Below, in pieces: positions 7,369-59,248 of a DNA stretch of 64,000 nt. Position numbers and translations under genes: made by a program. This DNA comes from Artocarpus heterophyllus (taxonomy: Eukaryota > Streptophyta > Magnoliopsida > Rosales > Moraceae). The stretch spans positions 18,635,274-18,699,273 of the forward strand of contig CM046350.1 of NCBI GenBank assembly GCA_025403435.1, given 5' to 3'. The notes beneath the pieces were generated by a model. It worked only from the letters and a program-made list of their open reading frames with translations. It was not told the DNA's origin and did no database searches. Every line of letters begins with the position of its first letter. Within the stretch, counting starts at the first letter, position 1.

Positions 7369-7373
7369 GGTTT
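7369..7373. repeat. Target-site duplication, left (GGTTT)
   Basis: GGTTT immediately precedes the first LTR and is repeated immediately after the second LTR at 15577-15581. A perfect 5-bp duplication is what LTR-retrotransposon integrase leaves, so it fixes both element ends. Confidence 0.9.
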
Positions 7374-9346
7374 TGTAACGCCCTTATATGAGGGTTAACA
7401 GTTTTTAATGAGATAAAATAAAAATAAATAATAAAAGTAAAACCTTAAAAATAAAATTTACCCGGGACTTAAATGAAAACTCTCAACTCAAAAATAAAAA
7501 TATAAACGATAAATAAACCACAGTTTTAATGTAGCACCTTAAATTTAATAATATAAACTGTTGTCATCATCATTTTAACCCTCAACACATTGTAATACAG
7601 TCACAGAAAGTAACAATTGATGCTTACATTATCATGAAGAACATTCTCAACAATTGAAGCAGTCCCAATGTAATATAGCTACATCACTTCCTCAACTATA
7701 TTTCTCGTAGCCACCTCACACTTAGTGAGTCCTGAAAAGATAAAAATATAAGGGTATGAGCAACACTATGCTCAGTAGAGAAAGCCATTACTCACCTTTA
7801 GGTTTTTATCATTACCACATTAAAACCTGCATGGTTAGTAAGTCACATCATATTCCAGATTATGAGGTTTATTATGATCACATCTTATGGATACCGTAGT
7901 TAATCATTACCAAGTGTCATAATTACACATTTATACAAATATTACCAATCATCATTGTTCCTAGGTATCCATGTTAAATTGAGTATCACTCAACTCATCG
8001 AAACTCAAATGGGCGCACTTGATCACCCTATAAACATTCCAAGGGTGTTCCGGTGAGGGGACATCAAGCCCCGAGTCCTCACCAAATCGATTCCTGTACA
8101 GTGTGTTCTGGGACTTTCAACCCAAGGAAGCGTCATCACCTTCCCCCTATTTTACCTTTTAGGGTATTCATGCCCAAGGACGTAATCGCCGCCCTCTTCA
8201 TGTCTCACCATTTCTCTATATTAAATCATTATTAATAGAGTCAGTTTTCCTAACCATGCTTCTCAATTTATAACATGTGTCAATTCATTATGTTCCTCGC
8301 CGTACAATACAAGACGAGTCCATGTCATAGTTTCATATGTGATAATCATATAATATCAGTTCAACATAGATATATATATATTGCGGCAAAACAATCAATT
8401 TTAATTCTATAAAAACCTCACAAAAGATGAGTAATAGAATCCCTACCTTTCAAGCTTATCAACAGTCTCTTAATCCAGGAATCAATTAACGTTAGCTCCA
8501 TACTCCCTTGATCCTAAGGCGTGCATAAGGACAATTAAAACTAAAGCACAACATACAACTACATTCATAAAATTTATTTTAATTTAATCTTAGAATTTCA
8601 AGAAATAACCACTGCCCATAGAGGTATTATAAAGTTTAACAATATAAATTTTCTGTCTAGGGCATATACACTTAGACTTCATACATATGCTCCAAAATAG
8701 CAACAAACATATACTTAGGTTTAAGAACGCAAATTTGAATAATCCTTTAGTATAAAAGAAAATTTATAAATGAAAGACTAAATTTGTTCATAAGATTCTA
8801 ACCTCGGATTATGGTTAGTTGGAAGCTTGAAATGGCTTCAAAACAGGTTCCTTTACTTCGGTATGACTGAAATTCTTGCTCAAATGGAGGTGATGGTGGC
8901 TGATTTTTATGGCTGCCTTGAAGAAGTTCTCTAAGTATTTTGCTTCAGCAAAGAAATGAGAAGAAGAGTGTGGGAACCGTGGAAGAAAAAGGAAGAAAAG
9001 ATGAAGTCTTTGAAAAGAAGTGATAGAAACAATTATAGAGGAGACATGTTGAAGCATGTCACGGAGGAAATAAAGAAAATGAGGGTCAAGAGTAGTTGGA
9101 AAAGATATCCTTATGTCTCATCTAAAGACTTTAACACACATAATGCCAATATGACATTTTTGAGATTTATTAGAAGTTCTAAGGCTTTTTAGTAATCATA
9201 CTAAATAAATATAGGAGAATTTTAGAAAATTTAAAAATAGATAAAAATAAATATTATAAAATAAATTTAAATGAAGCAATTTTTTTTATACATTAAAAAT
9301 TAATTTAATTACCTCAATACCCGTTAAAAGAATAACGGGTGTCACA
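7374..9346 (-). repeat. 3' LTR (in element sense) of the LOG retroelement
   Basis: 1973-bp direct repeat of 13604-15576, offset exactly 6230. On the + strand it starts TGTAACGCCC and ends GGGTGTCACA. Differences noticed: 7384 (T versus C), 7391 (A versus G) and 8477 (A versus T). Both ends can form hairpins: CCCT/AGGG around 7381-7394, and an 8-bp stem ACCCGTTA/TAACGGGT near 9320-9341. Short open frames inside it (for example 8053-8235) recur unchanged in the other LTR and are not genes. Confidence 0.93.
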
Positions 9347-9360
9347 GCTCTACCCCCCTT
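9347..9360 (-). other. Polypurine tract of the LOG retroelement
   Basis: Directly next to the 3' LTR, the - strand reads AAGGGGGGTAGAGC. A purine run touching the inner LTR edge is the expected plus-strand DNA primer site and confirms the - orientation. Confidence 0.75.
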
Positions 9361-10017
9361 AAAGAAATTTCGTCCTCGAAATTTCAATTCTAGCAATACT
9401 AGTAAAAATTATGATTCCACTATGATTCCAATTCTGAGTCTAAACCGTTAATGTTGTTTGTCCTCCAAATTTAAGTTATCGTATCTCCACTTATTTACTT
9501 GCATAATAAATCTTACTCCTAAATCCCTCAATGAGAGTATTTCTGACAAGTTTCAACTTATAACACCGTATAATAGTCTAAGAATCTGATCAGGCCTACA
9601 TATTGACCATATCATGATTCCAGTCCTTCATTGTCCATGGACTGTGATTTACAATCACATTTAAGGAGATTGCCAGAGAAATTTTATATACTTCATCTTT
9701 AGGTTCCTTTTCCTTTTTGAGTAAGGAAAAGTCAAATATATTTGATTTCATACCTCAACTAATAAACTAAAACATAATCATAAAACATATATCACAAACA
9801 CTTATATTCAAAACCATACATTAAACTTATTCATAGAGATATTAAACGGAATCTCTGGTTGCAAACATACCCGACATATTTTTCATTAAACAGCTATCCT
9901 CATGACACAAACATTCAATCCAAATAATATACTCATATTTCATATGGAATATCCCCATAACTGACTTTGGTACTTCCACATAATATTAACAGAATATTAC
10001 ACATTACAAACATGATA

Positions 10018-10167
10018 CGGATACGTTTCGAGAGTACAAGGCACTCCGTATACCAGCTATCCATATCATGCATGCTTAGAGGATACAAAAACATCGATAA
10101 ACAAAAGATCGGACCTTAAGAAGGATGCGTTTCGAGAGCATCAAGTACTCCGTATCCAGCCATCCCG
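10018..10167. repeat. Two 44-bp imperfect repeats in the 3' region of the LOG retroelement
   Basis: A block starting GGATACGTTTCGAGAG at about 10018 recurs as GGATGCGTTTCGAGAG at about 10125. Each continues with an ACTCCGTAT...CCAGC block. The period is about 107 bases. It lies in the 3' untranslated part of the element, downstream of the LOG ORF in sense. Function unknown; it could be an RNA structure or a recombination scar. Confidence 0.7.
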
Positions 10168-10300
10168 GCATTAGGCTCAATGAATCTAAAAGATTGAACA
10201 ACAATGTACCACAAGAAACACAGAATACAAGGCAAACGGTTATTTGTAACACACGAAATACGGACACACATGCCTACATGCCAAAGATAAAACAAAAAGA

Positions 10301-10951
10301 TTACAGATGGAGATTCAAATCAATTGGCCGCTCCCGGCTTTCCCTTTCCCATTCAAGCTTGGATGTTGCAGTGTCGGATTCTGGATGTATGATTTGCATT
10401 TTATCTATCAATTCCTCAGCTATTGAAGCAGTGACAAAGATTTGTCTCTCCGATTCTGTAGTGATGTTTTCTTCCACAGCGTAATCTAGAAATTTCAAAA
10501 GACCGTCATAAAAACCCTTTACGTTCAGCAGTCCCAAAGGTTTGGAATAAAAGCCCAACAATTGCCCACAAGCAACTATAAATATTTCCTCAAGAGTACC
10601 TAGACCACCAGGTAATGCTATAAAAGCATCAGAATTATAGATTATGTCTTTAAAATTTTTAGGGATACTCCTGACTCCTTCTCCCTTACCTATGGCTTCC
10701 TTACAAAGGTTTCCTTCAACTGGAATATGAGGCCAAATTCTTACATCAGTAGCGTCACTAGACCTAGCTGCTAGTGCCATATTTACCATCATTTTTATAC
10801 TACCACCCCCATAGATTATGTTAATCTTCTTGCGTGCTAGGACTTGCCCTAAGTGATTTGCAGCTTCTAAATAAGCTTTATCTTTTCCAAGGCTGGAACC
10901 ACAAAAGACACAGACATTCTTTATTTTCTTCGTGGACTGGGAGGTAGACAT
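10301..10951 (-). CDS. LOG-like cytokinin riboside 5'-monophosphate phosphoribohydrolase, retrotransposon-borne
   Basis: 216 codons, the usual size for LONELY GUY proteins, which split cytokinin riboside 5'-monophosphates into free active cytokinin and ribose 5-phosphate. Visible motifs: VCVFCGSSLGK at residues 13-23 (nucleotide-binding start), YGGGSI at 47-52, SDAFIALPGG followed by LGTLEE at about 107-122 (signature PGGxGTxxE), and KPLGLLNVKGFYD. The ATG at 10951 is preferred because the frame extends upstream only to a GTG at 10990. It is a single exon, whereas plant host LOG genes have several introns, which suggests capture from spliced RNA. Oddities: the family M-x-x-R-K block before SDAF is replaced (Asn99-Phe100 where Arg-Lys is expected), and GLMG after GGGSI is changed to KMMV. 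Activity is therefore uncertain. It is sense with the element and likely transcribed from its LTR. Confidence 0.85.
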   Translation of the reverse strand: MSTSQSTKKIKNVCVFCGSSLGKDKAYLEAANHLGQVLARKKINIIYGGGSIKMMVNMALAARSSDATDVRIWPHIPVEGNLCKEAIGKGEGVRSIPKNFKDIIYNSDAFIALPGGLGTLEEIFIVACGQLLGFYSKPLGLLNVKGFYDGLLKFLDYAVEENITTESERQIFVTASIAEELIDKMQIIHPESDTATSKLEWERESRERPIDLNLHL

Positions 10952-11594
10952 ATTTGGTTTATAGAAGTGGTTGCTTAATGTCTGCTCCACTTAGACTTCG
11001 GGTTCTACATGAGTTTTTAAAGATGAGAAATATACAAAAAGGGCTAAAGAGATAGACAAGTAGGTAATGAAAAGGTAATCCAAAGATTTAAACAAAATCT
11101 TGTGCGGATAAGAAAGTAAGATAAGGTGATTGATAGTTTACAGAAAATTTGATTCACTTTTTGAAAAAGATTAGACTCTAATTGTATAACTTTTGACAAT
11201 TGAGAACAATTCGACAGAAGACCCTCATGACACAACTGTAGACTTTTTGACAAATATACACCAAGTCTAGAAATTTAATATAAACGACAAATACTGTAGA
11301 ACTTTTGAAATTTGAGACACAAATCTTGAAATATCTGGATAAGCTTTTCAAAATTCAAACATATTACTGTACCGTATGTGACGTGTCTGATAAGATAATA
11401 TATTTTATTATATATATATTTAAGAAAATCATAAATTAAATAAGATATTAACACTTACTGTATCAATCTAATAATCACAATTATTTCAAACACAAAAGCA
11501 AATATTTTGAGTAAAAGAAAAACACAAACTGTTGAACATCAGCTAAAACTGCTTCAAATAAGTAAAGACTAAATAACCTTTATAGAGCGATGAC

Positions 11595-12116
11595 TTATTC
11601 CCCATCCAGTTTTCTTATGGCTTGGCAAACAGGATCTAAAAATACCATATTCCTGAGGCGTTGTCTTTCTGTATAAAATTTAGGCCAGAGTTTAAAAATA
11701 GCTCCTTGAACATATCCACTAGGGTGACCGTGGAGAGGAGGATGGATGCTATCCAAGTTCTCCTTTGAAAGTCCATCCCTACAAAACCTTATTTTATCCT
11801 CTCTATTCGTAGACATATAACCAGGTGAAGTACATTTACCGTTACAATTTTGTCTTCCACATTTGTTACAAGTGACCACGATGGCACGAGCTCTTCTTTT
11901 CATTGCACTACGACTGGTACCTGTTCCTGGTAAACCGACATCTTGACTAAAGTCACTCGGACGGATTTTCCCCTCTATTAACATTCTCACATCACAAGGG
12001 ATGCCAAAACGCATAAGAATCCACAACCGAGTAATTCTAGCCTTGTATTTCTTTCTAAGAATCTTTTGGGAGAGTGATGGGAAATACTTTCTCAGGTGTT
12101 GGTACTTTGGGTCCAT
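11595..12116 (-). CDS. Small basic Cys-cluster protein ORF of the LOG retroelement
   Basis: 173 codons from ATG at 12116, sense with the element and 643 bases upstream of the LOG start. Basic N-terminal half; then a basic patch KRRARA at about 73-78 followed directly by cysteines C83, C86, C91 and C95 (C-x2-C-x4-C-x3-C) and a C-T-S-P-G turn at 95-99. The C-terminal part is His/Pro- and Lys/Arg-containing without transmembrane segments. A basic patch plus a Cys knuckle suggests a nucleic-acid-binding protein. The arrangement resembles the small cysteine-rich nucleic-acid-binding proteins of some positive-strand plant RNA viruses (carlavirus type) more than a classical CCHC gag knuckle. That is pattern resemblance only. 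A diverged nucleocapsid of the retroelement is the main alternative. Confidence 0.6.
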   Translation of the reverse strand: MDPKYQHLRKYFPSLSQKILRKKYKARITRLWILMRFGIPCDVRMLIEGKIRPSDFSQDVGLPGTGTSRSAMKRRARAIVVTCNKCGRQNCNGKCTSPGYMSTNREDKIRFCRDGLSKENLDSIHPPLHGHPSGYVQGAIFKLWPKFYTERQRLRNMVFLDPVCQAIRKLDGE

Positions 12117-13584
12117 GATGAGATGAAAGAAGAGTAAATAGAAAGGAAAAATTAAGATAGTAAATTGCAGAATCCTAGAATTCCTTCTTCTTTTAGAGAA
12201 AAAGAAGAATTTTTAATGAAAAAGAAGAGGATTTGCGATTTAGAGAGAAAATAACAAATTAAGAGAGAAAAAGTGAACTCAGAGAAATAAGCTCCTATGC
12301 ACAGTAACCGTATTTGTAAACATTAATTAAACCACTGTATATGACACGTATAGAGACCACGTGGGAGAGACAGTGTGAATCAAACTGATTTAGGATTTAA
12401 ACTAGGCCCAAATGTTCTTAGTTGAAAATGGTCAGGTTGTTTCGGGCCTTAACACATTTAGAACGAGTTAAATAACAAACATAAAATTGAAAACCAATTT
12501 GTATAAATCTTAAACCCAATTTAAAGCCCACTATAGATAAAGTTAACTATGAACAACAAATCTAATTTAACGACAACAAGGATCTTCCTAAATGATATTT
12601 AAAATCATTTCATAACAACATAATCTTCCAGCAACTCAAATAATTTTGTTTTAATCAAAACCTTATTGAACAATGCATACACCCATATGTTATTCCTAAT
12701 ACTCAACATCTATCAATGGATTCATCATCATTACTACCAAGGGTTTAGAATGCGACTAACCTTGAAATCAATACGATTTACGTCTTTCAACGTAGACCAT
12801 ATCAATGAACAAAGACACTTGATGTTACTACTTAAGAACATCTATAATCCCCACAATTCTACTCATACAATATATAATTTCCTCATATAACAAAACCTTA
12901 GGTAACCAAAAGATTCACTGATACACTTAAATACAATGTACGTAACGAAATATTCCAATTTTGAGATTCATGCATTCTAGACTTTACAGTCTCAACAGAC
13001 CAAAAGTCTAACATTTATCTCTCTCAAGATTCAATACCATGATTCCCAACTTATATCATATTCCTCAAATATATAGAACTTTTAAGAAAAGACATTGACA
13101 CTTATGTGCTCCATCGAATCCACACATAATCATTACTTAGGTTTGAATCAATTACGAAAAATTTGGCATATCTATGTCAAACTTTAAAATCAATAAATCA
13201 AGCCTTATATTTCTTATTGTTTTTCACGAGACAAAAGGCTTTTAAATCCTCGTATCTATACGAATTTCTCATCGTTTATACGAATTAGATATGCTTATAG
13301 ATCCAAATATTATACGAATCTCTCATAAGCATTCTACTTATAAACTCATTCCATATAATTATCATTCCCTTATAACTATTAATACTTTCCTTCTATATAA
13401 TTATTGTACTCATATAACTATTGATATTTTCATTCTATGGCCTTTCCATGTTACATCCTTCTAGACTGTATAAATCAATGTGAAGGTTCATTTTGATGAT
13501 GACAATAAAAATTCAGCTTCAAAACCATCTCAAAAATATATTTTTTTAAAGTGGTGCTACACTCCCTAGGTTAACCGAACCTAG
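12117..13584 (-). other. Leader region of the LOG retroelement
   Basis: About 1.5 kb between the primer-binding site and the Cys-cluster ORF, AT-rich. No ORF of note and no gag-like motif. Near 13250-13420 it holds several short TATACGAAT- and TATAATTAT-like repeats. It probably acts as untranslated leader and packaging region. Confidence 0.55.
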
Positions 13585-13596
13585 GCTCTGATACCA
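13585..13596 (-). other. Primer-binding site (initiator tRNA-Met)
   Basis: The - strand reads TGGTATCAGAGC, the classical plant primer-binding site complementary to the 3' end of initiator tRNA-Met. It starts 7 bases inside the LTR ending at 13604. This fixes 13604-15576 as the 5' LTR in element sense. Confidence 0.9.
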
Positions 13597-13603
13597 AAAA
13601 TTC

Positions 13604-15576
13604 TGTAACGCCCCTATATGGGGGTTAACAGTTTTTAATGAGATAAAATAAAAATAAATAATAAAAGTAAAACCTTAAAAATAAAATTTACCCGGGACTT
13701 AAATGAAAACTCTCAACTCAAAAATAAAAATATAAACGATAAATAAACCACAGTTTTAATGTAGCACCTTAAATTTAATAATATAAACTGTTGTCATCAT
13801 CATTTTAACCCTCAACACATTGTAATACAGTCACAGAAAGTAACAATTGATGCTTACATTATCATGAAGAACATTCTCAACAATTGAAGCAGTCCCAATG
13901 TAATATAGCTACATCACTTCCTCAACTATATTTCTCGTAGCCACCTCACACTTAGTGAGTCCTGAAAAGATAAAAATATAAGGGTATGAGCAACACTATG
14001 CTCAGTAGAGAAAGCCATTACTCACCTTTAGGTTTTTATCATTACCACATTAAAACCTGCATGGTTAGTAAGTCACATCATATTCCAGATTATGAGGTTT
14101 ATTATGATCACATCTTATGGATACCGTAGTTAATCATTACCAAGTGTCATAATTACACATTTATACAAATATTACCAATCATCATTGTTCCTAGGTATCC
14201 ATGTTAAATTGAGTATCACTCAACTCATCGAAACTCAAATGGGCGCACTTGATCACCCTATAAACATTCCAAGGGTGTTCCGGTGAGGGGACATCAAGCC
14301 CCGAGTCCTCACCAAATCGATTCCTGTACAGTGTGTTCTGGGACTTTCAACCCAAGGAAGCGTCATCACCTTCCCCCTATTTTACCTTTTAGGGTATTCA
14401 TGCCCAAGGACGTAATCGCCGCCCTCTTCATGTCTCACCATTTCTCTATATTAAATCATTATTAATAGAGTCAGTTTTCCTAACCATGCTTCTCAATTTA
14501 TAACATGTGTCAATTCATTATGTTCCTCGCCGTACAATACAAGACGAGTCCATGTCATAGTTTCATATGTGATAATCATATAATATCAGTTCAACATAGA
14601 TATATATATATTGCGGCAAAACAATCAATTTTAATTCTATAAAAACCTCACAAAAGATGAGTAATAGAATCCCTACCTTTCAAGCTTATCAACAGTCTCT
14701 TAATCCTGGAATCAATTAACGTTAGCTCCATACTCCCTTGATCCTAAGGCGTGCATAAGGACAATTAAAACTAAAGCACAACATACAACTACATTCATAA
14801 AATTTATTTTAATTTAATCTTAGAATTTCAAGAAATAACCACTGCCCATAGAGGTATTATAAAGTTTAACAATATAAATTTTCTGTCTAGGGCATATACA
14901 CTTAGACTTCATACATATGCTCCAAAATAGCAACAAACATATACTTAGGTTTAAGAACGCAAATTTGAATAATCCTTTAGTATAAAAGAAAATTTATAAA
15001 TGAAAGACTAAATTTGTTCATAAGATTCTAACCTCGGATTATGGTTAGTTGGAAGCTTGAAATGGCTTCAAAACAGGTTCCTTTACTTCGGTATGACTGA
15101 AATTCTTGCTCAAATGGAGGTGATGGTGGCTGATTTTTATGGCTGCCTTGAAGAAGTTCTCTAAGTATTTTGCTTCAGCAAAGAAATGAGAAGAAGAGTG
15201 TGGGAACCGTGGAAGAAAAAGGAAGAAAAGATGAAGTCTTTGAAAAGAAGTGATAGAAACAATTATAGAGGAGACATGTTGAAGCATGTCACGGAGGAAA
15301 TAAAGAAAATGAGGGTCAAGAGTAGTTGGAAAAGATATCCTTATGTCTCATCTAAAGACTTTAACACACATAATGCCAATATGACATTTTTGAGATTTAT
15401 TAGAAGTTCTAAGGCTTTTTAGTAATCATACTAAATAAATATAGGAGAATTTTAGAAAATTTAAAAATAGATAAAAATAAATATTATAAAATAAATTTAA
15501 ATGAAGCAATTTTTTTTATACATTAAAAATTAATTTAATTACCTCAATACCCGTTAAAAGAATAACGGGTGTCACA
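13604..15576 (-). repeat. 5' LTR (in element sense) of the LOG retroelement
   Basis: 1973 bp, direct repeat of 7374-9346 with no indels. In element sense it starts TGTGACACCC and ends GGGGCGTTACA. It should hold the promoter that drives the Cys-cluster and LOG ORFs. Confidence 0.93.
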
Positions 15577-15581
15577 GGTTT
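15577..15581. repeat. Target-site duplication, right (GGTTT)
   Basis: Perfect copy of 7369-7373, directly after the outer LTR end. Confidence 0.9.
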
Positions 15582-18647: not shown

Positions 18648-21041
18648 TGTAACGCCCCTATATGGGGGTTAACAGTTTTTAATGAGATAAAATAAGAATA
18701 AATAATAAAAGTAAAACCTTAAAAATAAAATTTGCCCGGGACTTAAATGAAAACTCTCAACTCAAAAATAAAAATATAAACGACAAATAAACCACAGTTT
18801 TAATGTAGCACCTTAAATTTAATAATATAAACTGTTGTCATCATTATTTTAACCCTCAACACATTGTAATACAGTCACAGAAAGTAACAATTTATGCTTA
18901 CATTATCATGAAGAACATTCTCAACGATTGAAGCAGTCCCAATGTAATATAGTTACATCACTTCCTCAACTATATTTCTCGTAGCCACCTCACACTTAGT
19001 GAGTCCTGAAAAGATAAAAATATAAGGGAATGAGCAACACTATGCTCAGTAGAGAAAGCCATTACTCACCTTTAGGTTTTTATCATTACCACATTAAAAT
19101 CTGCATGGTTAGTAGGTTACATCATATTCCAGATTATGAGGTTTATTATGATCACATCTTATGGATACCGTAGTTAATCATTACCAAGTGTCATAATTAC
19201 ACATTTATACAAATATTACCAATCATCATTGTTCCTAGGTATCCATGTTAAATTGAGTATCACTCAACTCATCGAAACCCAAATGGGCGCACTTGATCAC
19301 CCTATAAACATTCCAAGGGTGTTCCGGTGAGGGGACATCAAGCCCCGAGTCCTCACCAAATCGATTCATGTACAGTGTGTTCTGGGACTTTCAACCCAAG
19401 GAAGCGTCATCGCCTTCCCCCTATTTTACCTTTTAGGGTATTCATGCCCAAGGACGTAACCGTCGCCCTCTTCATGTCTCACAATTTCTCTATATTGAAT
19501 CATTATCAATAGAGTTAGTTTTCCTAACCATGCTTCTCAATTTATAACATGTGTCAATTCATTATGTTCCTCGCCGTACAATACAAGACGAGTCCATGTC
19601 ATAGTTTCATATGTGATAATCATATAATATCAGTTCAACATAGATATATATATATTGCGGCAAAACAATCAATTTTAATTCTATAAAAACCTCACAAAAG
19701 ATGAGTAATAGAATCCCTACCTTTCAAGCTTATCAACAGTCTCTTAATCTTGGAATCAATTAACGTTAGCTCCATACTCCCTTGATCTTGAACTCCAAGC
19801 AAAACAGATCTAGTTGTATCTCGCTGTATCTACGAAGCATCCTCTGTAGTGCTCCTAGAGCGACTATGAATGGCTAGGAATGCTTCCTGGAGATCATACA
19901 TTCTTGAAAACGTCATTCTGGACTCCAATACTGCTATTTGAATCGCCTCGATTCGCGTGCAGTCGGTACCGGATGATTTTCATCGGAGTGGAATTTGCTC
20001 GAACGGAGGTCACCATTGCATCCAGAGCATCGAAACGAGTCAGGAGGCGGTCTCGGATCTTCGATCGGAGGTCCGGATCACAAAATCCCAATTTAGCCTT
20101 TGACTGGCCGTTGACCGGCGTTGACCACCGTTGACCGGCGTTGACCGACTTTGACCGTCGTTGACCGGCGTCAATCGGGGTCTGTTGGCAGCTGGGCTCG
20201 GGCCTACCCCCCCTAAATCGACCCTTCTGAGTCCAATGGCGGGGTCAATTTCACCCAATTCTGCCTCTAACATAGCGGGTCGTGAAGTACAACGTCGGTA
20301 GAAATGGATGAGCTCCGATCTTGATTCTCCGACGATGGAAACCTGAAATTGGCTGAGGGCTTTTGCTACCCATCCTCCTATGAGCATTTCCCCTCATCCA
20401 ATTTGAAGAAACGTGGCTGGGAAGAGCCAAAACGGAGGCTCCCGCGGCGGTTGACGGCGGCGTTGGCCGTTCTCCAGCGAAACCGGCTCCTTCCGTGCAA
20501 TTGATCGAGGGGTTTTACTCCCCTTGATCCTCTGAACTCATTGGGAGGGGTGGTGTCAGTCACCTCCTCCGACAAGGCGGAGTTCCACCATGGGGGCGGC
20601 GGTACACGGCGGCAATAGGCGGGCGGAGCAATCCGGCGGTTGTTGAGCTGCCACCAAGGGTGGGTTTTGTTCCTCTCATCACGGTGGTCGTGTAGGAACA
20701 AGAATCACGTCGATCGGACGTCGGACGGCGAAGATATCTCGTCGGAAAGAAATGGGTTTTGCCGCCACTTTGGGCGGCGCGTGTGGTCTCCTCCGGCGGC
20801 GTTTTGGGCGGCGCGGCACCTCGTTGGACTCAGCTCGTCGAGAGCTTTCCATTGGTGCGGGAGGTGTCGAAAACGGATGCCGAAATCTCAAACGATCTTT
20901 GAGGAGAGAGAGAGAATTCTAGAGAGAGAAAGAGGAGAGAGAAAGTCTCGAGTTTTGTGATATTTTCTGATTTTTTTTATATATATACTAGGTAATTAAT
21001 CTAATTACCTTAATACCCTTAGGAGAATAACGGGTGTCACA
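18648..21041 (-). mobile_element. Solo LTR of the LOG-retroelement family, with a different U3 segment
   Basis: 2394 bp, starting TGTAACGCCC and ending GGGTGTCACA like the 1973-bp LTRs. The left 1140 bases (18648-19787) align without length change to 7374-8513, with scattered substitutions. The last about 50 bases also match. The 1.2 kb between (19788 to about 20991) is unrelated to the corresponding 783 bp (8514-9296), is much more GC-rich and holds a W-box array. In element sense the replaced part is U3, the promoter region, while R/U5 is conserved. It interrupts the hAT transposase. Confidence 0.88.
20100..20166. promoter_or_regulatory. Array of seven W-box cores at about 10-bp spacing in the solo-LTR U3
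   Basis: TTGACT at 20100 is followed by TTGACC at 20111, 20121, 20131, 20141, 20151 and 20161. TTGAC(C/T) is the W-box core bound by WRKY factors. Spacing of 10 bases places the sites on one face of the helix. In element orientation they lie on the lower strand inside U3. Binding is inferred, not shown. Confidence 0.65.
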
Positions 21042-26900: not shown

Positions 26901-29900
26901 CTTCATTAATTATGTATGTTTATGTGCAGTGCGACAGATCTATCTTATAATAACTTTTCTGAGAGCTCTATCCCGCCAACTTGCAGTGAAAATCTGTGAG
27001 AAGACTGTTCTTCCTTATTATTAATTATATCTTGTTTGTCATTTTTTTTTTCCTCCTATAATGAGTCGCTAATTGTTCTCACATCAACTTTCTTTGGTTT
27101 GTTATCAGGAATTTGTTCAGGAGCTTTTCTTCTAAAGACAACTCGTAAGCTTATAACTAATCCTTTAACATAAATATATAGTTCTACTTGCCCTCCCACT
27201 TTTTACTTATATAACTTGAGTTTTTTTTTTTGTTGCCTCATCAATAAGATCTCTTGCAAAGTGCTTCACCAATACATGCCCAAAAGGTATCATTCACTTA
27301 ATTTCATAGCTTCTTTTTTAATAACACGATTAGCAGTTTTCTGTCTCGAAATAATAATAATTCAAGTGCTATTTTTGTACAGATTATTACTCAGTAAACA
27401 TAAATTGTGGTGGAAAAGAAACCGCCATTGGAAAAATTAAATACGAAGCGGATCAATACTCAGGCGGTGATGCAAAATTCAAACCTGAAAGGGGTGGCAT
27501 ATGGGAAAAAAGTACAACGGGAGAGTTCTGGGATAAACCCAGCAAAGATAAAACAAACATGTATATAGCAAACAATGTATCTATACTCAGAATGGACAAC
27601 CCTGATTTGTACACAGATGCCAGTGTCTCTGCTCTTTCTCAAACATATTTTGCGCGTTGCCTTGTGAATGGAAACTACACAGTGAAGCTTCACTTTGCAG
27701 AGATTATTATCAGAGACAATAGATCTTTTCAAAGTCTTGGGAGGAGAATATTTGATGTCTATATTCAGGTAATTAAACTTGCATTCTGAATCTTTAACAT
27801 AATGTTATGCTGTCGAAGAATATCTCGTTAATAAACAATATTGTTGCAGGAAAAATTGGTGTTAAAAGACTTTAATATTATGAAGGAAGCAGGTGGGGCT
27901 GATAAGGCTGTCATTAAGCCATTCAAAAAAGTCAAGGTCAGCAATAGGATTCTAGAAATCCGGTTTCATTGGTCTGCAAAAGGAACAACAGGTGTCCCAA
28001 GGAGGGGAATATATGGTCCTCTTATATCAGCTATCTCTATAGACTCTGGTAAGTCAAGAGAAGTTCCTTTCTTGAAGGCCTAATATGATGATATATATAG
28101 TACATTTAAGTGTATCCCTCTATCATTTGAACTTAATTGAGAATCATAAGAATTCCAAGTAAAATCATGCTTTTGCATCTTAACAGATACCACGCTTGGT
28201 AATATAGTGATAAAAAGATTGAATCCATCACTTCCAATTAATTACTTTTAATACATAAGTTTAGAAACGTTAGAAAAGATGTTTGAGATGAATTTCTGTG
28301 TCTTTAGATGATGATATACTTACACACTAGTATTTTCTGATGTAAATCTTATATTGGATTCTATGAATTAATATTCTCTAATGCAGAATTCAAGCCTCCT
28401 GCAATCAGCAGAAAGGTTGCTATTGAGATTGGTGTTGGCATCACAGGTTTATGCCTTATTTTTGCAATTGCAAGCCTTCTTTGGTGGAAAGGCTTTTTTG
28501 GAGGAAGCGCATCGAGGGAAAAAGGTTCCGACGATAATAAATACACTAGAAATCACAAGTAGTTCATAATAATTTTCCTCAAAATTGCAAGGATTTCATG
28601 ATCATTTCTATGTTATTCAGCTAGGCGACTCGCTGGCTAAACACTAACCCACTTCCTTGAACAGAACTCAGAGGGCTTGACCTGCAAACTGGATTTTTCA
28701 CTTTCAGACAAATCAAAGCTGCTACTAACAACTTTGATCCCACAAACAAGATTGGGGAAGGTGGTTTCGGATCTGTGTACAAGGTACCATTGGGAAGAAA
28801 ACCCATCATTTTTCTTTTCCTCCATTATTTAATTATGCCTTTTAAATAATTTTTCCCTTTATTCCATTTCAATGCAGGGTATACTGTTGGATGGAAGCAT
28901 AATTGCAGTAAAGCAACTTTCATCAAAATCAAGGCAAGGAAATCGCGAGTTTGTAAACGAAATAGGCATGATTTCTGGATTACACCATCCAAATCTTGTT
29001 CGACTGTACGGATGTTGCATTGAAGGGAATCAATTGTTGTTGGTGTATGAATATATGGAAAACAATAGTCTTGCCCGTGCTTTGTTTGGTAAGCTTAACA
29101 AAGTCTTAATATGCATCAATGAGAAATAACAAAACTGAATTATGCAGCGAATAAGATTTTAATTTGATTACAGGTCCAGAGGATGAAAGATTGAGGCTAG
29201 ATTGGCCTACGAGGCATAAAATATGTGTAGGCATAGCAAAAGGCCTGGCTTTTTTACATGAGGAATCAATATTGAGAGTTGTTCATCGAGACATTAAAAC
29301 TACCAACATACTACTTGACAGGGACCTCAATCCTAAGATCTCTGACTTTGGATTGGCCAAGCTTGATGAAGAGGAGAACACTCACATTAGCACGAGAATT
29401 GCGGGAACAGTGTAAGCACGATTTTGCTTCACCAAGTGACGTATTTCTGCATGTGATATGTGCATGATCATCTGCTAGACAAATAACAATGTATATTAAT
29501 GCAGAGGATACATGGCACCAGAATATGCATTATGGGGATACTTGACATATAAAGCTGACGTTTTCAGCTTTGGTGTTGTTGCACTCGAAATTGTTGCTGG
29601 GAAGAGCAACATGAAATATCGACCAAATGAAAACTATGTCTGCCTGGTGGATTGGGTAAGATGGATCTTCTATTTCCCATTGCCATTTTATTTTATATAA
29701 AAAGAAATATATCATTTAAATACTTTTGTTTTTCCTGTCATGAAATCCACAATTCAAAATGTATATTGTCCTTAGGATCTCATACCAGAAAATATCGACT
29801 TTTCCAGGCACTTGTATTACAACAAAAAGGGAATTTAATGGAGCTAGTAGACCCAAACTTGGGGTCTGATTTTAACAAGGAAGAGGCGGTTAGAATGATC

Positions 29901-31377: not shown

Positions 31378-31640
31378 TAGGTATCGAGTTGGTCACGGGC
31401 CTTTGTGGCCCGTTTAAATTGATGCAATTCTGGGCTTCAGCCCAGAATGCATTTTCTTCCCGGGGGTTCACGACCCCTGGTAATCGAGGCCAGGCAGTTG
31501 GCAGAGCCAACCGTCAAAGATACTGCACAGGGCAGCTGAGGCTCTGCTCACCGGCGGGACATCACGGCCGCACCCAGAGGGCACCGTTGCCGGCGGCGGA
31601 ACAGCAAGCCGCCGGTAATCCCACGGGTTTCTGAATGCCT
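31378..31640. repeat. GC-rich repeat, left copy (related to 36180-36600)
   Basis: Shares with 36180-36600, in the same orientation, blocks such as GGGCTTCA...CCCAGAA, TTCTTCCC/TTGCCC, CCAGGCAGTTG, CCGCACCCAGAG and GGAACAGCAAGCCGCC. It is a diverged direct repeat lying after the RNase H remnant of the copia element. Confidence 0.65.
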
Positions 31641-31689
31641 TTAGAAACGATTTCCAAATCGTTTCTGCAAATTGAATTAACTGTGACTT

Positions 31690-34600
31690 AATCTCTATAT
31701 GCTTTGATTTTGAAGAGCTCCTGTTGTTGTTGGAATATAAGACTGCAGATTTATTGTCACAAAACAACTTAAGTGGTCTTTCTATACTTTTCACAATCCG
31801 CAGCCCAATGACAAAGTTTCGCAGCCATATTCCATGATTGGATGCCTCATAACATGCTATAAATTCTACCTCCATAGTAGAAGAAGCTATGAGTGACTGC
31901 TTAGCACTCCTCTAAGAAATAGCTCCTCCAGCAAGCAAAAAAATATAGCCCGAAGTGGATCGATGACTATCTTGACATCTAGCAAAATCTGAATTTGAAT
32001 AACCAATGATCTCGAGTTGGTATGACCTTCTATATGTAAGCATGTGATCTTTTGTTCTCTGTAAATATCGCATAACCCGTTTGGTTGCTTTCCAATGATC
32101 CATTCCAAGGTTACTCAAATATCTACCCAACAATCCAACAATGTATGCTATATCTGGACGAGTACAAACTTGAGCATACATTAGACTCCCAACAGCTGAT
32201 GCATATAGGATCTTTGCCATTTCCTTAACCTCAAGGTCGTTCTTAGGACACTGACTTAAACTGAACTTATCTCCTTTAGCCACAAGGGTATCTCCTGGTT
32301 TACAATCCTGCATGCCAAATCTTTTAAGTTCCTTTTCGATATAGCTCTTTTGTGATAACCCAAGTATGCCCCGAGAGCGATCTCGGTGTATTTTAATTCC
32401 TAACACAAAAGAGGCGTTACCAAGATCTTTCATTTCAAATTTCTTTGATAGAAATCTCTTGGTTTCGTGCAATAAGCCTATATCATTGGTGGCAAGTAGT
32501 ATATCATCAACATACAATACCAGAAGAATACACTTGCTCCCACTGAACTTATGGTATATAAGTCATCTACAGTGTTCATCTCGAAACCGAATGAGACTAT
32601 CACTTGATGAAATTTGTAATACCATTGACGAGAAGCTTGCTTAAGCCCATAGATGAATTTCTTTAATTTGCAAACCATCTTCTTTGGGTCTCCCAACTCA
32701 AAGTTTTCTGGCTTCACCATATAGATCGTTTCATCAATGTCGCCATTTAGAAACGCCGTCTTAACATCCATCTGATGTAGCTCAAGATCAAAATATGCTA
32801 CAAGTGCCATAATTGTCCTAAAAGAGTCTTTCATTGAAACCGGAGAGAAAGTCTCTTTATAATCAATGCCTTCCTTTTGAGTAAAGCCTTTAGCGACAAG
32901 ACGAGCCTTATATCGCTCTACATCATCCTTCGAATCCCTCTTGGTTTTAAATATCCATTTACAACCAATGAGCTTCGCACCTTCAGGCAATGGAACAAGA
33001 TCCCAAACGTCATTGTCATTCATAGACTTTATCTCATCCTTCATGGCATCCATCCACTTTTGAGAGTTTGAACTATGCATAGCTTGACGGACATTGATTG
33101 GATCATCATCCATCAATCCAACACTTTCCTCATGTTCTTGGAGAAATGCTATGTAATCATCCGGAATAGCACTTCTTTTCTCTCTAGTGGATCTCCTTAA
33201 TGACACAAGTTCCTGAGGTTCTGCTTCTTGAGGTTGTTGAGTTTGTACCTGAAGGGGTTGAACGACTATGTCTGGTTGTTCTTGATATGCAACTTGATCA
33301 ATGTCAGGGATAGAAGCCTGAACATTATCAAAAGCAATTGTGAGAATAGGAACCAATCCCTCTTGAACAAGAGGAACAAGATCAAATTCATCCTCAAAGA
33401 CAAAGTCTCTAACCTTATTTCTCCCCCCAAACTCAATATCCTTAAAGAATGTTGCAATTCCCGTCTCAAAAATAGCCTTAGTAGTGGGATCATAAAATTT
33501 GTAACCCCTTGACCGTTCAGAGTAACCAATGAAATAGCAGCTCACTGTCTTGGAGTCCAATTTTTTTTCATTGCGCCTATAAGGTCTTGCTTCCACTGGG
33601 CAACCCCAAGTATGTAAATGCTTCAGACTAGGCCTTTTGTCAGTCCAAAGCTCATAAGGTGTTTTAGCTGCTGCTTTTGTTGGCATTCTGTTGAGAATGG
33701 AAGCTGCAGTCTTTAGTGCTTCACCCCAGAGGGATTCAGGCAAGGTGGAATGACAAATCATACTCCTCACCATGTCCTTAAGTGTCCAGTTTCGTCTCTC
33801 AGCTACACCATTCATGCAGGGTGAACCTGGCATGGTATATTGAAGGATTATCCCACATGCCTCTAGGAATTTAACAAAAGGTCCTGAACGTTGTTCACCT
33901 GATCCGTCATATCTGCCATAGTACTCACCACCACGATCAGATCTGACGCCCTTAATTCTTTTACTGAGTTGAAGCTCAACCTCAGCCTTATATGATTTGA
34001 ACACGTCCAAAGTCTGTGACTTCTCATGTATGAGATATAGGTAGCCATACCGGGAGTAATCGTCTATAAACGATACAAAATATTGTTGACCATTCCATGA
34101 AGCCACAGGAAATGGTCCATAAATGTCCGTATGTATCAATTCTAAGACATCCGTAGGTCTATTGGCACTCAATCCCCTTTTGTTTGTCTATTACCCTTTA
34201 ATACAATTAACACAGGTTTCAAAATTTATAAAATCAAGGGAATTAAGAATTCCATCTGACACAAGCTTTTCCATCCTTTTCTTTGAAATATGTCCCAATC
34301 GCTTATGCCATAAAACAACAGAATTCTCATCGGTTAATTTACGTTTTATGCCACAAGAACTAACATGCAAGGTTTCATTATAAGAAGCAATTGTATCAAG
34401 CAAATATAGGTTATCTTGAAATGATAAAGAACCAGTACTAATAACAATAGAAATTAAAGTCCACCTAAACGACGGTACAACAAAAGTGTCTTTCAAATTC
34501 AAATAATAGCCGAAACTTAATAATAACCTAAAGTACCCTATTGCTTCAACTTCTACCGATTTGCCATCTCTCACATAGATGAATCTTTCAGCATTAATTG

Positions 34601-35489
34601 GCTTTCGGTAGCTCAGGCAACCCTGCATAGACACACTTATATGAATAGTGGCACCTGAATCAATCCAACAAGTGTGTCTTGGCACTGAAGTTAAACTAAC
34701 CTCAGAACAAACCAAATTGAGAAGCATACCTTTCTTTGCACGCCAAGCATGATACTTGGTGCAGACCTTCTTCATGTGTCCAGGTTTACCACAAAAGAAA
34801 CAACTGTGATTTTCATCCTTATCCTTATGTTGTTTCTTTTGTGCTGGATCTTTAGCAGCTTCATTACTTTTCTTTCTTTTCTTCTTCTTGTCATTAGAGG
34901 AGCTAGCCAAGTGAACACTTTTAGTCTTCTCTTGCTTCAGTCTTTCTTCCTCTTGCACACAATAAGAAATTAACTCATTAAGAGTCCATTTCTCTTTCTG
35001 ACAGTTGTAACTGATCTTGAATTGGTTGAGTTATGCAAGAAGAGAAATCAAGACAAGATGCACTAGAAGATCCTTAGAAATTTCCAGATCTAGTGTCTTT
35101 AATCTTGAAACGAGATGAGACATTTCCATAATGTACTCCCTTATGTTTCCTTTTGCTTTGTACCTCATTGTAATCAGGCTCGCCAAAAGCGTGCTTGTTT
35201 TAGCCTTATCATTCTTTGCAAAGCATTTCTTAATGGCCTCAAGGAAACCCTTGGCTGTTGTGACCTCATCAGGTACAGTGCCCCTGAAGACTTCTGGAAT
35301 GGCTCTCTTAATAATCATCAGACTTATTCCGTTAGAACGATCCCATCTTTCAAGTTCCTTTTTATCCTCAGTGGAACTAGAATCTGTAATAGTGGGACGT
35401 TCAACCCTTATGGCTAAGTCTAGATCTAGGCAACCGAGAACGATCAACACATTCTCTTTCCAGTCCTTGAAGTTAGTCCCATTCAGCAT
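31690..35489 (-). pseudogene. Ty1-copia gag-pol pseudogene
   Basis: Domains in order on the - strand: gag (from ATG 35489, MLNGTNFKDW), stop near 35031, CCHC zinc knuckle CFFCGKPGHMKKVC (about 34805), protease CWIDSGATIH (about 34670), GAG-pre-integrase LWHKRLGHISKKRM (about 34290), paired stops TAA-TAG near 34190, integrase core ([27 protein letters not shown]; 34130-33770), reverse transcriptase ([21 protein letters not shown]; about 32900-32730), a frame change near 32520, [11 protein letters not shown], and RNase H (DNKSAVLYS, KHIEIK) after another stop at about 31912. Each break is enough to inactivate it. Confidence 0.88.
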
Positions 35490-36020
35490 AAGAATGAAAT
35501 TAACATTTACAGATATCGAGGAAGATGATGCTATAGCTGAACAAAGAACAAAATCACATATTCACATAAGACTTCACATAAAACACCAATAAAATTCAAA
35601 CAATGATTAATCCCATCACAAGAAACCTGTAACAACATTAATATTTAGTTTTTGGACTTAAATATTAACTTGTAAGTGGTATTCTTGGTGTAGTGATCAA
35701 ATATTAACAATAAATCATATCAAATAATAAGCTAATCTTTGGATTTACTTATCATTTATATGCCAAAAATAACTATATAATTGTTACATATTTATCACTA
35801 CAAGTATGAATTTAATTCGGTCAAATATTAAACTTCCTTTGGGCCGATTAATATTCTCATGAATTAAATTCACACAACCATCTTAATATCACAAATTAAT
35901 TAACATTCACAAAAGATGGTACTTTGGCAGCTTATTGATTCAATTAATTAGTTGTTAATATTAATAATCTAAAAACACAATTTGAATTTTAAAGTTGCAC
36001 CCAAAAATGACCACAAAAAA

Positions 36021-38247: not shown

Positions 38248-44808
<6,561 letters not shown>

Positions 44809-45358: not shown

Positions 45359-47384
45359 CTAATCTCCATAGGAAGCAACACTGTCCATGATATGAGCCAA
45401 AACACTCTTGCATTCCTGAAGCTTCTTGACACTTCCTTTCAGCTTCGACCGCTTTATTGCTACCAAAGGTGACTCCTCCATCAGCCTCTCGATCCCACCG
45501 CCATGAGTTGTCATCAGCTTGGGGACAATCTCCATCTCCAGATCGTTGTTCACCAGGCTGAAAAGACAGAACTGCAAATGCAAAACCATGACATCAACAA
45601 GCCTTCTCAACACAATCTTCCAATATGCAATCATCCACATCTTCAGGTCGAAAGCCTGATGCAGAAGATGCGGATAACGCCTAAGATATTTGACCTCAAT
45701 CTCTCCGAACCCTTCCAAATTCACCTTTGATGGCCTTTTCTTGTCGTGCAAGACACTGTGTAAGAATCCATCCTTCTGTGTCATTAGATTGGTCCACTTG
45801 GTGGAAAAATCCAGATTACAAGTGTAATCAGTCAGCTTCTCCATCTCCACCACCTCCATTATCCACTTATTGGATCTTTCTTTCATCTTCGAGATCAGAT
45901 TGTGGCCGGCACATCTTGTGGACAGCAGAAGTTGGTAATAGTCCTCAACATGGCGCATCAAAACCGTGATCACCACCTCCCCAGTGCAGTCCCACAACCT
46001 CTCAACAAAGCTTACTGGTATGCTTGATATCCCATTGACCTTCCATTGCAAGACAGTGAGAAAAGCCGAGCGAGGGAGGAAGTTTGGCAGAGCAATCTCT
46101 TTAGCTTCTTCCAAGTTCCTGATCTCATCATTAGAAAGTTCATAATCGGATCACTCTCTGCGCACTTGTGAAGCTCATCTGAGTACTGATTCAACATTTC
46201 AACCAATCTCGCCGTGCAATGCATGCGGTTTTCATTTGGATACTCGTCGAATTCCCCTCTGAGAAGAACTTCCCTCAGGGACTCCTTCACAAACCCGAGG
46301 ATCCTAATGAAAGCAGTCATGGCTCCAGCAATTGTGGACATTTTCTTCGGCAGCTTATTGAGCTCATTCAGGTTTGAATTCAGCTTGTCATTTATCCTCA
46401 CCACAATCTCCGGCAGGTTTCTACCAATACTAGAAGCTTGAATCTGGACCAACCTCTGAGCCAAAACGGGAATTCCCACAATCGATTTGTCGATCTTCGA
46501 AAGCAGAGGATGAGCTCCGAAAAGCCGAGCTTCCTCTTTCCTTGCCACCTCATAAGACTCTCTCCAACCCTGTTCCTAACACAGACATAACCAAGACCAA
46601 TGTTAACATCATCCGCAGTTACCTTCTCTGGAAGCCCTTCGGGAGCCTTATCCGCCTTTGTCACCACGGCGAGAGTCCTCTATCTGGTCTTGTCCACGGA
46701 CTGCAACATCCGAATCGACTCGCAAGTAGGGAAATCAACAGTTGCAGAAAGAACAATGAGTATGATGCTCTCTTGAGGCACTATATACTCCATAATAATA
46801 TCCCTTATCTGATCAAAAATATTCTCGTGCTGTCCATGAACAGGAACTCTAGTGATTCCCAGATGATCAACCATTGTCAAATCAGGAACGCGTTTCCTTT
46901 TCACCACCAGAGTCAAAGGGGTGTTGGAAATTCCTTTTCCATTGCCTGCAATCTCGTCAGTGGCCTGATATATTGCCTCCGAGATGTTCTCTTCGTCGGT
47001 CGGGACAACTTTGCCATTGAATTCCAGGAAGAGCTCCGGATGAGGATTGGAGTGGTGTTGAAGCCTCATGATGAGAGGGACTCAGGTGCAAATACCTTGT
47101 CCACGAGGGAGGCGGATTCCAGCGAGGGATTCGATGACGCTGGACTTGCCGGAGGACTGATCCCGACAACGACGATCGTCGGGAGTGGAATTTCTTCCTC
47201 CATGACACCGAGTTCCCGAAGCCGGTCGAGTGCATTGAGGAAGGGACGAATGCGGTCGTTGCTGTAAGAGACGATGGATGCAGTGGAATCCACTGGAATC
47301 AATGCAAGTGAATGTTCCTCATTGACATGCATAGAACTGAACCTTTTTGATCAAAGGAGAGGAGGAGCCTCTAGTTTCAGCCAT
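45359..47384 (-). pseudogene. Dynamin-related protein 4-type pseudogene
   Basis: Collinear over its whole length with the intact gene at 57077-59125, and intronless like it. Probable old start ATG at 47384 (MAETRGSSSP), already out of frame with what follows. Breaks seen: one base lost inside the P-loop codons near 47161-47163; TGA at 47082-47084 in the G2 region; DLPG changed to DHLG near 46850; TAG at 46680-46682 before the G4 motif; a frame change near 46555; another near 46115. The C-terminal middle/GED part (46114 to 45359) is still open. Without a P-loop no GTPase could be made. Confidence 0.88.
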
Positions 47385-59125: not shown

Positions 59126-59248
59126 TTTTCTTGGTTGGAGAGTGAGAGAGGGAAAAAGGTTTGGCAGGGGAGAGAAGGAAGAGAATACAAGTAGACTAGT
59201 AGTGTGGGAATGGAAACTCTGGAGAGTGGAGTGGAGGGGCTGTGCTTG

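Follow-up and report, generated by a model that had tools for sequence, protein, structure and literature searches.

We analysed a 64,000-nt stretch of the Artocarpus heterophyllus genome (assembly GCA_025403435.1, CM046350.1, positions 18,635,274-18,699,273 of the forward strand), hereafter the window, which carries a long terminal repeat (LTR) retrotransposon on its minus strand. In the place of gag-pol, the element holds two open reading frames (ORFs) in sense orientation, one LOG-like and the other resembling the cysteine-rich proteins (CRPs) of plant RNA viruses. The features of the element and of a related LTR nearby, numbered from the first nucleotide of the window, are as follows.

7369-7373, no strand: left copy of the target-site duplication (TSD), GGTTT (sequence comparison)
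7374-9346, minus strand: 3' LTR, 1973 bp (LTR alignment)
9353-9360, minus strand: polypurine tract (PPT) AAGGGGGG, adjoining the 3' LTR (sequence reading)
10010-10071, minus strand: RNA hairpin b, downstream of LOG, with the stem ATGATATGGATA / TATCCGTATCAT (fold z-score -4.6; covarying alignment A4; covariance-model match, a training row)
10119-10169, minus strand: RNA hairpin a, downstream of LOG, with the stem GGATG / CATCC (alignment A4; model match, a training row; alone z-score -0.4, a stability no better than that of shuffles)
10301-10951, minus strand: 216-codon LOG-like ORF without introns, its catalytic Arg replaced (start codon at 10951, last base of the stop at 10301; Pfam PF03641)
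11595-12116, minus strand: CRP/NABP-like ORF, 173 codons, basic KRRAR then four cysteines (related to viral Carla_C4 / Viral_NABP via its family)
13585-13596, minus strand: primer-binding site (PBS) TGGTATCAGAGC (sequence reading; presumed match to initiator tRNA-Met)
13604-15576, minus strand: 5' LTR, 1973 bp (LTR alignment)
15577-15581, no strand: right copy of the TSD, GGTTT (sequence comparison)
18648-21041, minus strand: solo LTR with another type of U3, from a sister subfamily (TSD GACCT; elsewhere, by eye, LTR pairs of this type surround copies of CRP or LOG)

The LTR alignment and the matching TSDs bear out the original prediction of a minus-strand element at 7374-15576 with a PBS and a PPT. 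The two LTRs differ by exactly 3 mismatches over 1973 bp, which at an assumed rate of 1.3e-8 per site per year dates the insertion to ~58,000 years, in keeping with the predicted age of well under 0.1 million years. The internal region of 4257 bp begins on the minus strand with GAATTTTTGGTATCAGAGC and ends with TTCTTTAAGGGGGGTAGAGC. As predicted, gag-pol is absent from it: only two sense frames of at least 90 codons lie within the 4257 bp. One is the intronless LOG homologue already recognised, whereas the other, the CRP-like ORF (12116-11595) 643 bp upstream of it, had been overlooked, and LOG is not the lone cargo. We take the PBS to match initiator tRNA-Met, and by the features of its LTR ends, PBS and PPT we presume that the family belongs to Ty3/gypsy. 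Nothing in the element matched Rfam. The solo LTR at 18648-21041, which had been counted as a further copy of the family, is real, but only ~1.14 kb (98% identical) and the last ~70 bp (81%) can be aligned to the window LTR and the remaining U3 cannot, placing it in a sister subfamily. Its R-U5 part is the portion 98% like the window LTR; an exchange of U3 between subfamilies would swap the promoter.

The family is large. In the genome searched (985 Mb, 334 contigs), the best 40 of 2727 candidates for the LTR were all full-length at 99-100% identity, accompanied by two short pieces. Ten LTR pairs were fetched and compared with the window element. Both genes lie at the same places in all 11 elements, and the PBS TGGTATCAGAGC and PPT AAGGGGGG occur in 11/11; the TSDs match in 10/11, the exception being L017, in which a one-base gap breaks the LOG frame (LOG open in 10/11, CRP in 11/11). 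The fetched LTR pairs differ by 0, 3, 4, 1, 0, 1, 4, 4, 4 and 0 bases, next to 3 in the window, plus a few gaps. Inspection of 11 of the 18 unpaired LTR matches added seven more two-gene elements, of which two have a stop in CRP, one has a broken LOG, one reaches a contig end and one shows a rearrangement of its LTR. The rest were three LTRs whose flanks, as far as fetched, showed no internal sequence, and a partial element with CRP present and LOG not. Over the 18 elements inspected, LOG is open in 16 and CRP in 16, the 17 others align to the window internal region, and none contains gag-pol.

Protein-level searches extended this count. The best 150 of 5822 CRP candidates were identical to the window protein over 173/173 residues, and the best 150 of 6114 LOG candidates were full length, 100% identical and without stops, so that the LOG ORF is found at many places and not at this locus only. 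A second CRP query found at least 150 other places, one of which is a divergent lineage; the other 149 were taken to be of the window family from their 51-53% identity to the query and the same stop position. Within the listed places there are 37 CRP-LOG pairs, and at least 413 places carry CRP, LOG or both, or at least 412 without the divergent one, confirming the suspicion of a multi-copy family; since the listings begin with the best matches and stop short of all copies, they do not tell what fraction of the copies is intact. LTR pairs of the second U3 type are spaced ~6.6 kb apart, which implies a similar internal length (~4.24 kb against ~4.26 kb), and by eye such pairs enclose CRP copies (C9:2.50 Mb, C10:35.73 Mb and C224) and LOG copies (C3:12.38, C4:15.83 and C9:16.54 Mb). 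These data show that the window element belongs to a large, recently active, non-autonomous LTR element family with two conserved genes. Some arrangements of the copies are unusual. At C9:16537152-16564376 five same-strand LOG copies lie ~6.65 kb apart, like a tandem array sharing LTRs; on C13 a family copy lies within the internal region of another in opposite orientation (L019, L020); and the 32-Mb contig C9 opens with a LOG copy, right from its first codon (C9:1-648), perhaps at an assembly breakpoint in the repeat.

The LOG-like frame matches PF03641 (E 7e-21, 75 bits, cut-off 27), its product keeps the PGGxGTxxE motif as PGGLGTLEE, and a structure-database search matched it to At2g37210 (E 1.5e-42). 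Catalysis by CgLOG relies on Arg99 and Glu122, and Met96, His97, Lys100, Glu125 and Trp129 form its prenyl pocket (PMC4979012). In that numbering, the window protein keeps Glu122 and has Asn in place of Arg99, and the five pocket residues are all replaced, by I, P, F, I and G, respectively. Of 119 database relatives, 109 have Arg99, 114 Trp129, 38 His97, 10 Lys100 and 9 Glu125, so that most relatives have the catalytic pair with an altered pocket and the window family has lost the Arg as well. Within the same genome, Arg99 is retained by the L039, L040, L041 and C22-type lineages and lost in L043. In a tree of 49 chosen rows, the window protein and the database entry P0001 share a 1.28-long branch in a 40-row clade, apart from which stand the six canonical Solanaceae LOGs that served as outgroup. 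P0001, from public assemblies, is one residue (Thr177) away from the window protein, and ten fetched copies also have Thr177; among the best 120 database proteins listed, no other is more than 49% identical to it. A 68-aa canonical LOG query of the genome gave at least 150 matches; those listed, at 55-66% identity, resemble ORFs of the retroelement type, with no recognisable host LOG exon among them. Judged by its residues, the window protein is probably not the cytokinin-activating enzyme that had been predicted. Because the catalytic Arg and the whole prenyl pocket are lost while relatives in the same genome keep the catalytic pair, it is probably a pseudoenzyme, i.e. a non-catalytic nucleotide-binding or partner-binding protein. 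A further variation is seen in Xanthoceras, where LOG-like proteins of 336-381 aa (P0002-P0004) have two LOG units per gene model.

For the CRP-like protein, a single-sequence search found 15 relatives and a profile search 855 at E <= 0.01. Genomes named among the best 120 of the 855 are Xanthoceras, Populus, Acer, Hibiscus, Rhamnella and Orobanche, and a single cluster at 90% identity comprises 566 members, a size to be expected of repeats. When 42 family members (the window protein and 41 relatives) were scanned with Pfam, 33 matched Viral_NABP and 33 matched Carla_C4 at E <= 0.001; the window protein is in neither set. Its sequence reads as a basic KRRAR followed by C-X2-C-X4-C-X3-C, over a length of 173 aa (relatives mostly 178-186). 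By these profile matches, the ORF falls in a family from plant genomes that is akin to the viral Carla_C4/Viral_NABP profiles. The gene itself is chromosomal, within an LTR element, and not in a plant RNA virus genome; profile A1 of the family returned no relative from viral contigs, and a sequence search of the PDB found no credible one (best E 0.34). Carlavirus CRPs are nucleic-acid-binding silencing suppressors, one of which has a nuclear signal and a zinc finger, and the CRP of chrysanthemum virus B is also a transcription factor and induces hyperplasia (PMC8839810, PMC12172455). By analogy with such relatives, the CRP-like protein is likely to be an anti-silencing or nuclear nucleic-acid-binding factor.

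The two genes recur in the same order in divergent lineages of this genome. In the C17 lineage (L039), CRP is 75% and LOG 62% identical in amino acids to the window, and in the C22 type (L048, L042) the values are 58% and 49%. When the 150 CRP places listed for the C22 type were compared with 150 listed LOG places, 72 CRPs had a LOG downstream on the same strand, with starts 0.68-1.26 kb apart, against none within 2.5 kb in other arrangements (chance expectation 0.03); entries without a partner among the places listed are no evidence of absence. Many C22-type CRP copies carry stops, which marks this family as older. The intergenic stretches measure 643, 753 and ~635 bp and are only patchily alignable. 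CRP followed by LOG is an old cassette: the LOG cargo is old, being common to lineages down to ~50% amino-acid identity with the same CRP upstream. Of the single recent LOG capture that had been proposed, the youth of the insertion stands but the youth of the cargo does not. Downstream of a C22-type LOG there is also a TTGGGGGGAGAAGG tract (L049:152-167), which could be the polypurine tract of a different element, perhaps an Athila-like one.

Selection on the two genes was estimated as the ratio of non-synonymous to synonymous divergence (dN/dS) by the Nei-Gojobori method with our own script. CRP ratios were computable for two pairs only, window-L039 (dN 0.165, dS 1.083, ratio 0.15) and L039-L048 (0.125); dS between the window and L048 is saturated. 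For LOG, the ratio of the window to L039 is 0.26, to L041 0.45, to L040 0.48, to L043 (87% identical) 0.39, and to the C22 types 0.25-0.27. The range is thus 0.25-0.48 over the 8 pairs with the window, not the value near 1 that would have counted against the original prediction, and 0.12-0.57 over all pairs with a ratio (L046, with stops and no LPGG motif, was excluded). In simulations of substitution without selection, a frame stays open in 0.7-1.6% of cases once identity drifts to 60% or 50%. The dN/dS between lineages, together with the many intact copies, shows both frames to have been kept open by purifying selection through the element lineages. The constraint on LOG is uneven. In a middle segment of ~60 codons, from the GGG loop to SDAF and including the catalytic Arg, the ratio inside and outside the segment is 0.89 and 0.27 for window-L041, 1.02 and 0.23 for window-L043, 0.86 and 0.31 for window-L040, and 0.64 and 0.16 for window-L039, whereas L041-L039, a pair without the window, gives 0.29 and 0.19. 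Fisher tests on rounded counts, made for two pairs and uncorrected, returned p 0.007 (window-L041) and p 0.04 (window-L043). Selection on the segment is relaxed or positive in the window-family lineage. A compensated frameshift was considered as the cause of the divergent middle and rejected, because L041 and L043 align to the window there with no gaps.

Downstream of LOG, the transcripts would contain RNA hairpins, two in the window (10010-10169) and three in L049 (274-508). All five share GNTG and GAAACG, four share GGAG, and the stems covary. In their alignment 95.5% of cells pair, against 82.6% in shuffles, 10 cells show two-sided change against 3.8, and the covariation score is 0.579 against 0.309, each of which was reached by 0/500 shuffles; with the alignment slid by 1-3 columns, 29-58% of cells pair. 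The single hairpins fold with z-scores of -0.4, -4.6, -2.9, -2.2 and -2.0. A covariance model run over 125,437 bases from 11 sources gave 6 matches. Four are among the five training instances, one at E 0.27 is at chance level, and one is an untrained match at L048:1504-1552 (E 5e-6), between CRP and LOG, where the window has no match. This untrained match is the best support for the hairpin. Taken together, the alignment and the model support a predicted covarying hairpin that follows the LOG ORF in two lineages and in one also lies between CRP and LOG; its probable site of action is the 3' part of the transcripts.

The explanation that we consider probable, with reservations, is that a non-autonomous family of Ty3/gypsy type keeps an old two-gene cassette for host manipulation instead of gag-pol. 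The family would be moved by gag-pol supplied by another element, and the cassette, which lies in sense orientation where gag-pol would be, would be expressed. The first product would be a nucleic-acid-binding zinc-finger protein like the CRPs of plant RNA viruses and, to judge by its relatives, would dampen RNA silencing or target nucleic acids in the nucleus; the second, LOG-derived and without the catalytic Arg and the prenyl pocket, would bind a nucleotide or a partner non-catalytically; and the hairpin downstream of LOG would serve as a 3' RNA element. Several observations weigh against this explanation. No autonomous partner was found, though the searches with the LTR and the second U3 had near-identical copies for their listed matches and could not have revealed one. 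Trans-acting proteins selected in a non-autonomous element may call for cis preference, or for selection in autonomous relatives. The window CRP scores under both Pfam cut-offs (16.3 of 23 bits and 13 of 20.9 bits), the viral relationship of its family lies at the profile level, and its cysteine spacing is shorter than the C-X2-C-X12-C-X4-C of a carlavirus example (PMC8839810). The highest LOG ratios among nearer kin are 0.57 (L041-L043) and 0.55 (L040-L043), the former counting against constraint, and within the young copies the small counts of synonymous to non-synonymous changes are 6:9 for LOG and 9:10 for CRP. As for the hairpin, the structure was derived from the same five rows (two lineages) on which it was tested, five being few, and two measures are weaker, namely the 6 pairs that change on both sides (reached by 19/500 shuffles) and the 15 additional pair types (61/500).

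Of the rival explanations, the one that survives best, though we hold it unlikely, is that the cassette is selected in autonomous, gag-pol-bearing relatives and that the window family is a deletion derivative keeping it by recent descent. Athila-like elements with a LOG ORF have reportedly been described, in two cases, by Steinbauerova et al. in 2011. The TTGGGGGGAGAAGG tract downstream of LOG at the C22-type locus would fit such a source, as would the LOG-like domains in Citrus and Populus Ty3/gypsy consensus sequences found by reverse transcriptase (PMC9289625). Set against it are the internal regions of the window family, which lack gag-pol in 18/18 inspected elements, and the similar internal lengths of the two U3 subfamilies (~4.26 and ~4.24 kb); both imply that the family has amplified without gag-pol for some time. 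A second rival, that both ORFs are inert passengers intact only through a very recent burst, is improbable. LTR pairs 0-4 bases apart speak for such a burst, stops or frameshifts are already present in some copies and in many C22-type CRP copies, and the LOG middle evolves at a dN/dS of 0.64-1.02 between the window and L039, L040, L041 and L043. Yet the same four pairs give 0.16-0.31 outside the middle, CRP gives 0.125-0.15 at dS >= 1, order and spacing are kept despite the patchily alignable intergenic DNA, and the simulated frames seldom (0.7-1.6%) stay open at 60% or 50% identity without selection. Hardly credible, finally, is the version of the original prediction, in which a spliced host LOG transcript was recently captured and is carried as a mobile, active cytokinin gene under LTR control: the intact intronless ORF, the kept PGGLGTLEE and the very young insertion agree with it, but not the loss of the catalytic Arg and pocket residues, the absence of any protein but the near-identical P0001 above 49% identity among the best 120 listed, the long branch (1.28 changes per site in the 49-row tree) within a clade that is separate from the canonical LOGs and in which most kin lack Lys100, or the several diverged lineages in the genome with the same cassette.

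A wider form of the host-manipulation cassette reading can be put forward only tentatively. A cassette of a silencing-suppressor-type CRP, a LOG-derived protein and a dedicated structured 3' RNA may have been carried by retrotransposons for long, be widespread in eudicots, and be selected for counter-defence or access to dividing cells, with CRPs exchanged with plant RNA viruses, possibly in the direction from retrotransposon to virus.

Elsewhere in the window, several frames resemble known genes. Fragmented minus-strand frames at 31471-35561 read like Ty1/copia gag-pol; a broken copy at 45362-47350 and an open 723-codon frame at 57080-59248, both on the minus strand, are presumably dynamin-related GTPases; and three similar exon-like frames at 332-763, 27361-27786 and 41567-41998 look like a tandem group of malectin/LRR receptor kinases.

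Large retrotransposon derivatives (LARDs) have long LTRs, a PBS and a PPT, lack gag-pol and are mobilised in trans, and are defined as non-coding. The window family is like them in its LTRs, PBS, PPT and lack of gag-pol, and presumably in its mobilisation, but keeps two ORFs under selection. The LOG domain in an LTR retrotransposon is not new: LOG-like (YgdH) domains are known from Citrus and Populus elements of the Ty3/gypsy type (Steinbauerova et al. 2011, cited after PMC9289625). Like these, the window family has a LOG-family ORF in a eudicot LTR retrotransposon; unlike them, it is without gag-pol, has lost the catalytic Arg, occurs in hundreds of near-identical copies and has a virus-type upstream gene in a fixed pair, a CRP partner not being mentioned in the available part of PMC9289625. 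The window CRP resembles the carlavirus and allexivirus CRPs (PF01623 Carla_C4, PF05515 Viral_NABP) in the profile relation of its family and in a basic stretch followed by four cysteines, and differs from them in lying in a nuclear retrotransposon and, at 173 aa, in having an extra conserved C-terminal half and shorter Cys spacing. Endogenous betaflexivirus sequences are likewise flexivirus-related sequences in plant chromosomes (PMC3136472), but the accessible part of that survey describes one replicase-like sequence in cucumber and names no CRP gene or retrotransposon cargo. Orchid elements of Ty3/gypsy type that encode an AlkB m6A demethylase also bear an RNA-directed accessory gene, but are ~25 kb long with one extra ORF, as opposed to a non-autonomous two-gene cassette (PMC9289625). 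A literature search, with most subscription papers outside its reach, found no report of a CRP-type gene in retrotransposons or of a CRP-LOG pair, and the pair is not described in the available part of PMC7264820. LOG-like ORFs in LTR retrotransposons are thus already published, and the CRP-LOG pair is what we found no report of. AlkB domains, as it happens, also occur in flexiviruses.

Plant retroelements are controlled by RNA silencing, and to our knowledge few of them carry a protein able to fight it. A relative of viral suppressors that is under strong purifying selection, in hundreds of near-identical copies, would make retrotransposon counter-defence directly testable. Its pairing with a LOG-derived protein raises the question of whether retroelements manipulate cytokinin signalling or nucleotides, and the window LOG offers a case of an enzyme cargo turned likely pseudoenzyme. 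The retrotransposon CRPs, in turn, may provide a new route to ask about the origin of plant-virus CRPs.

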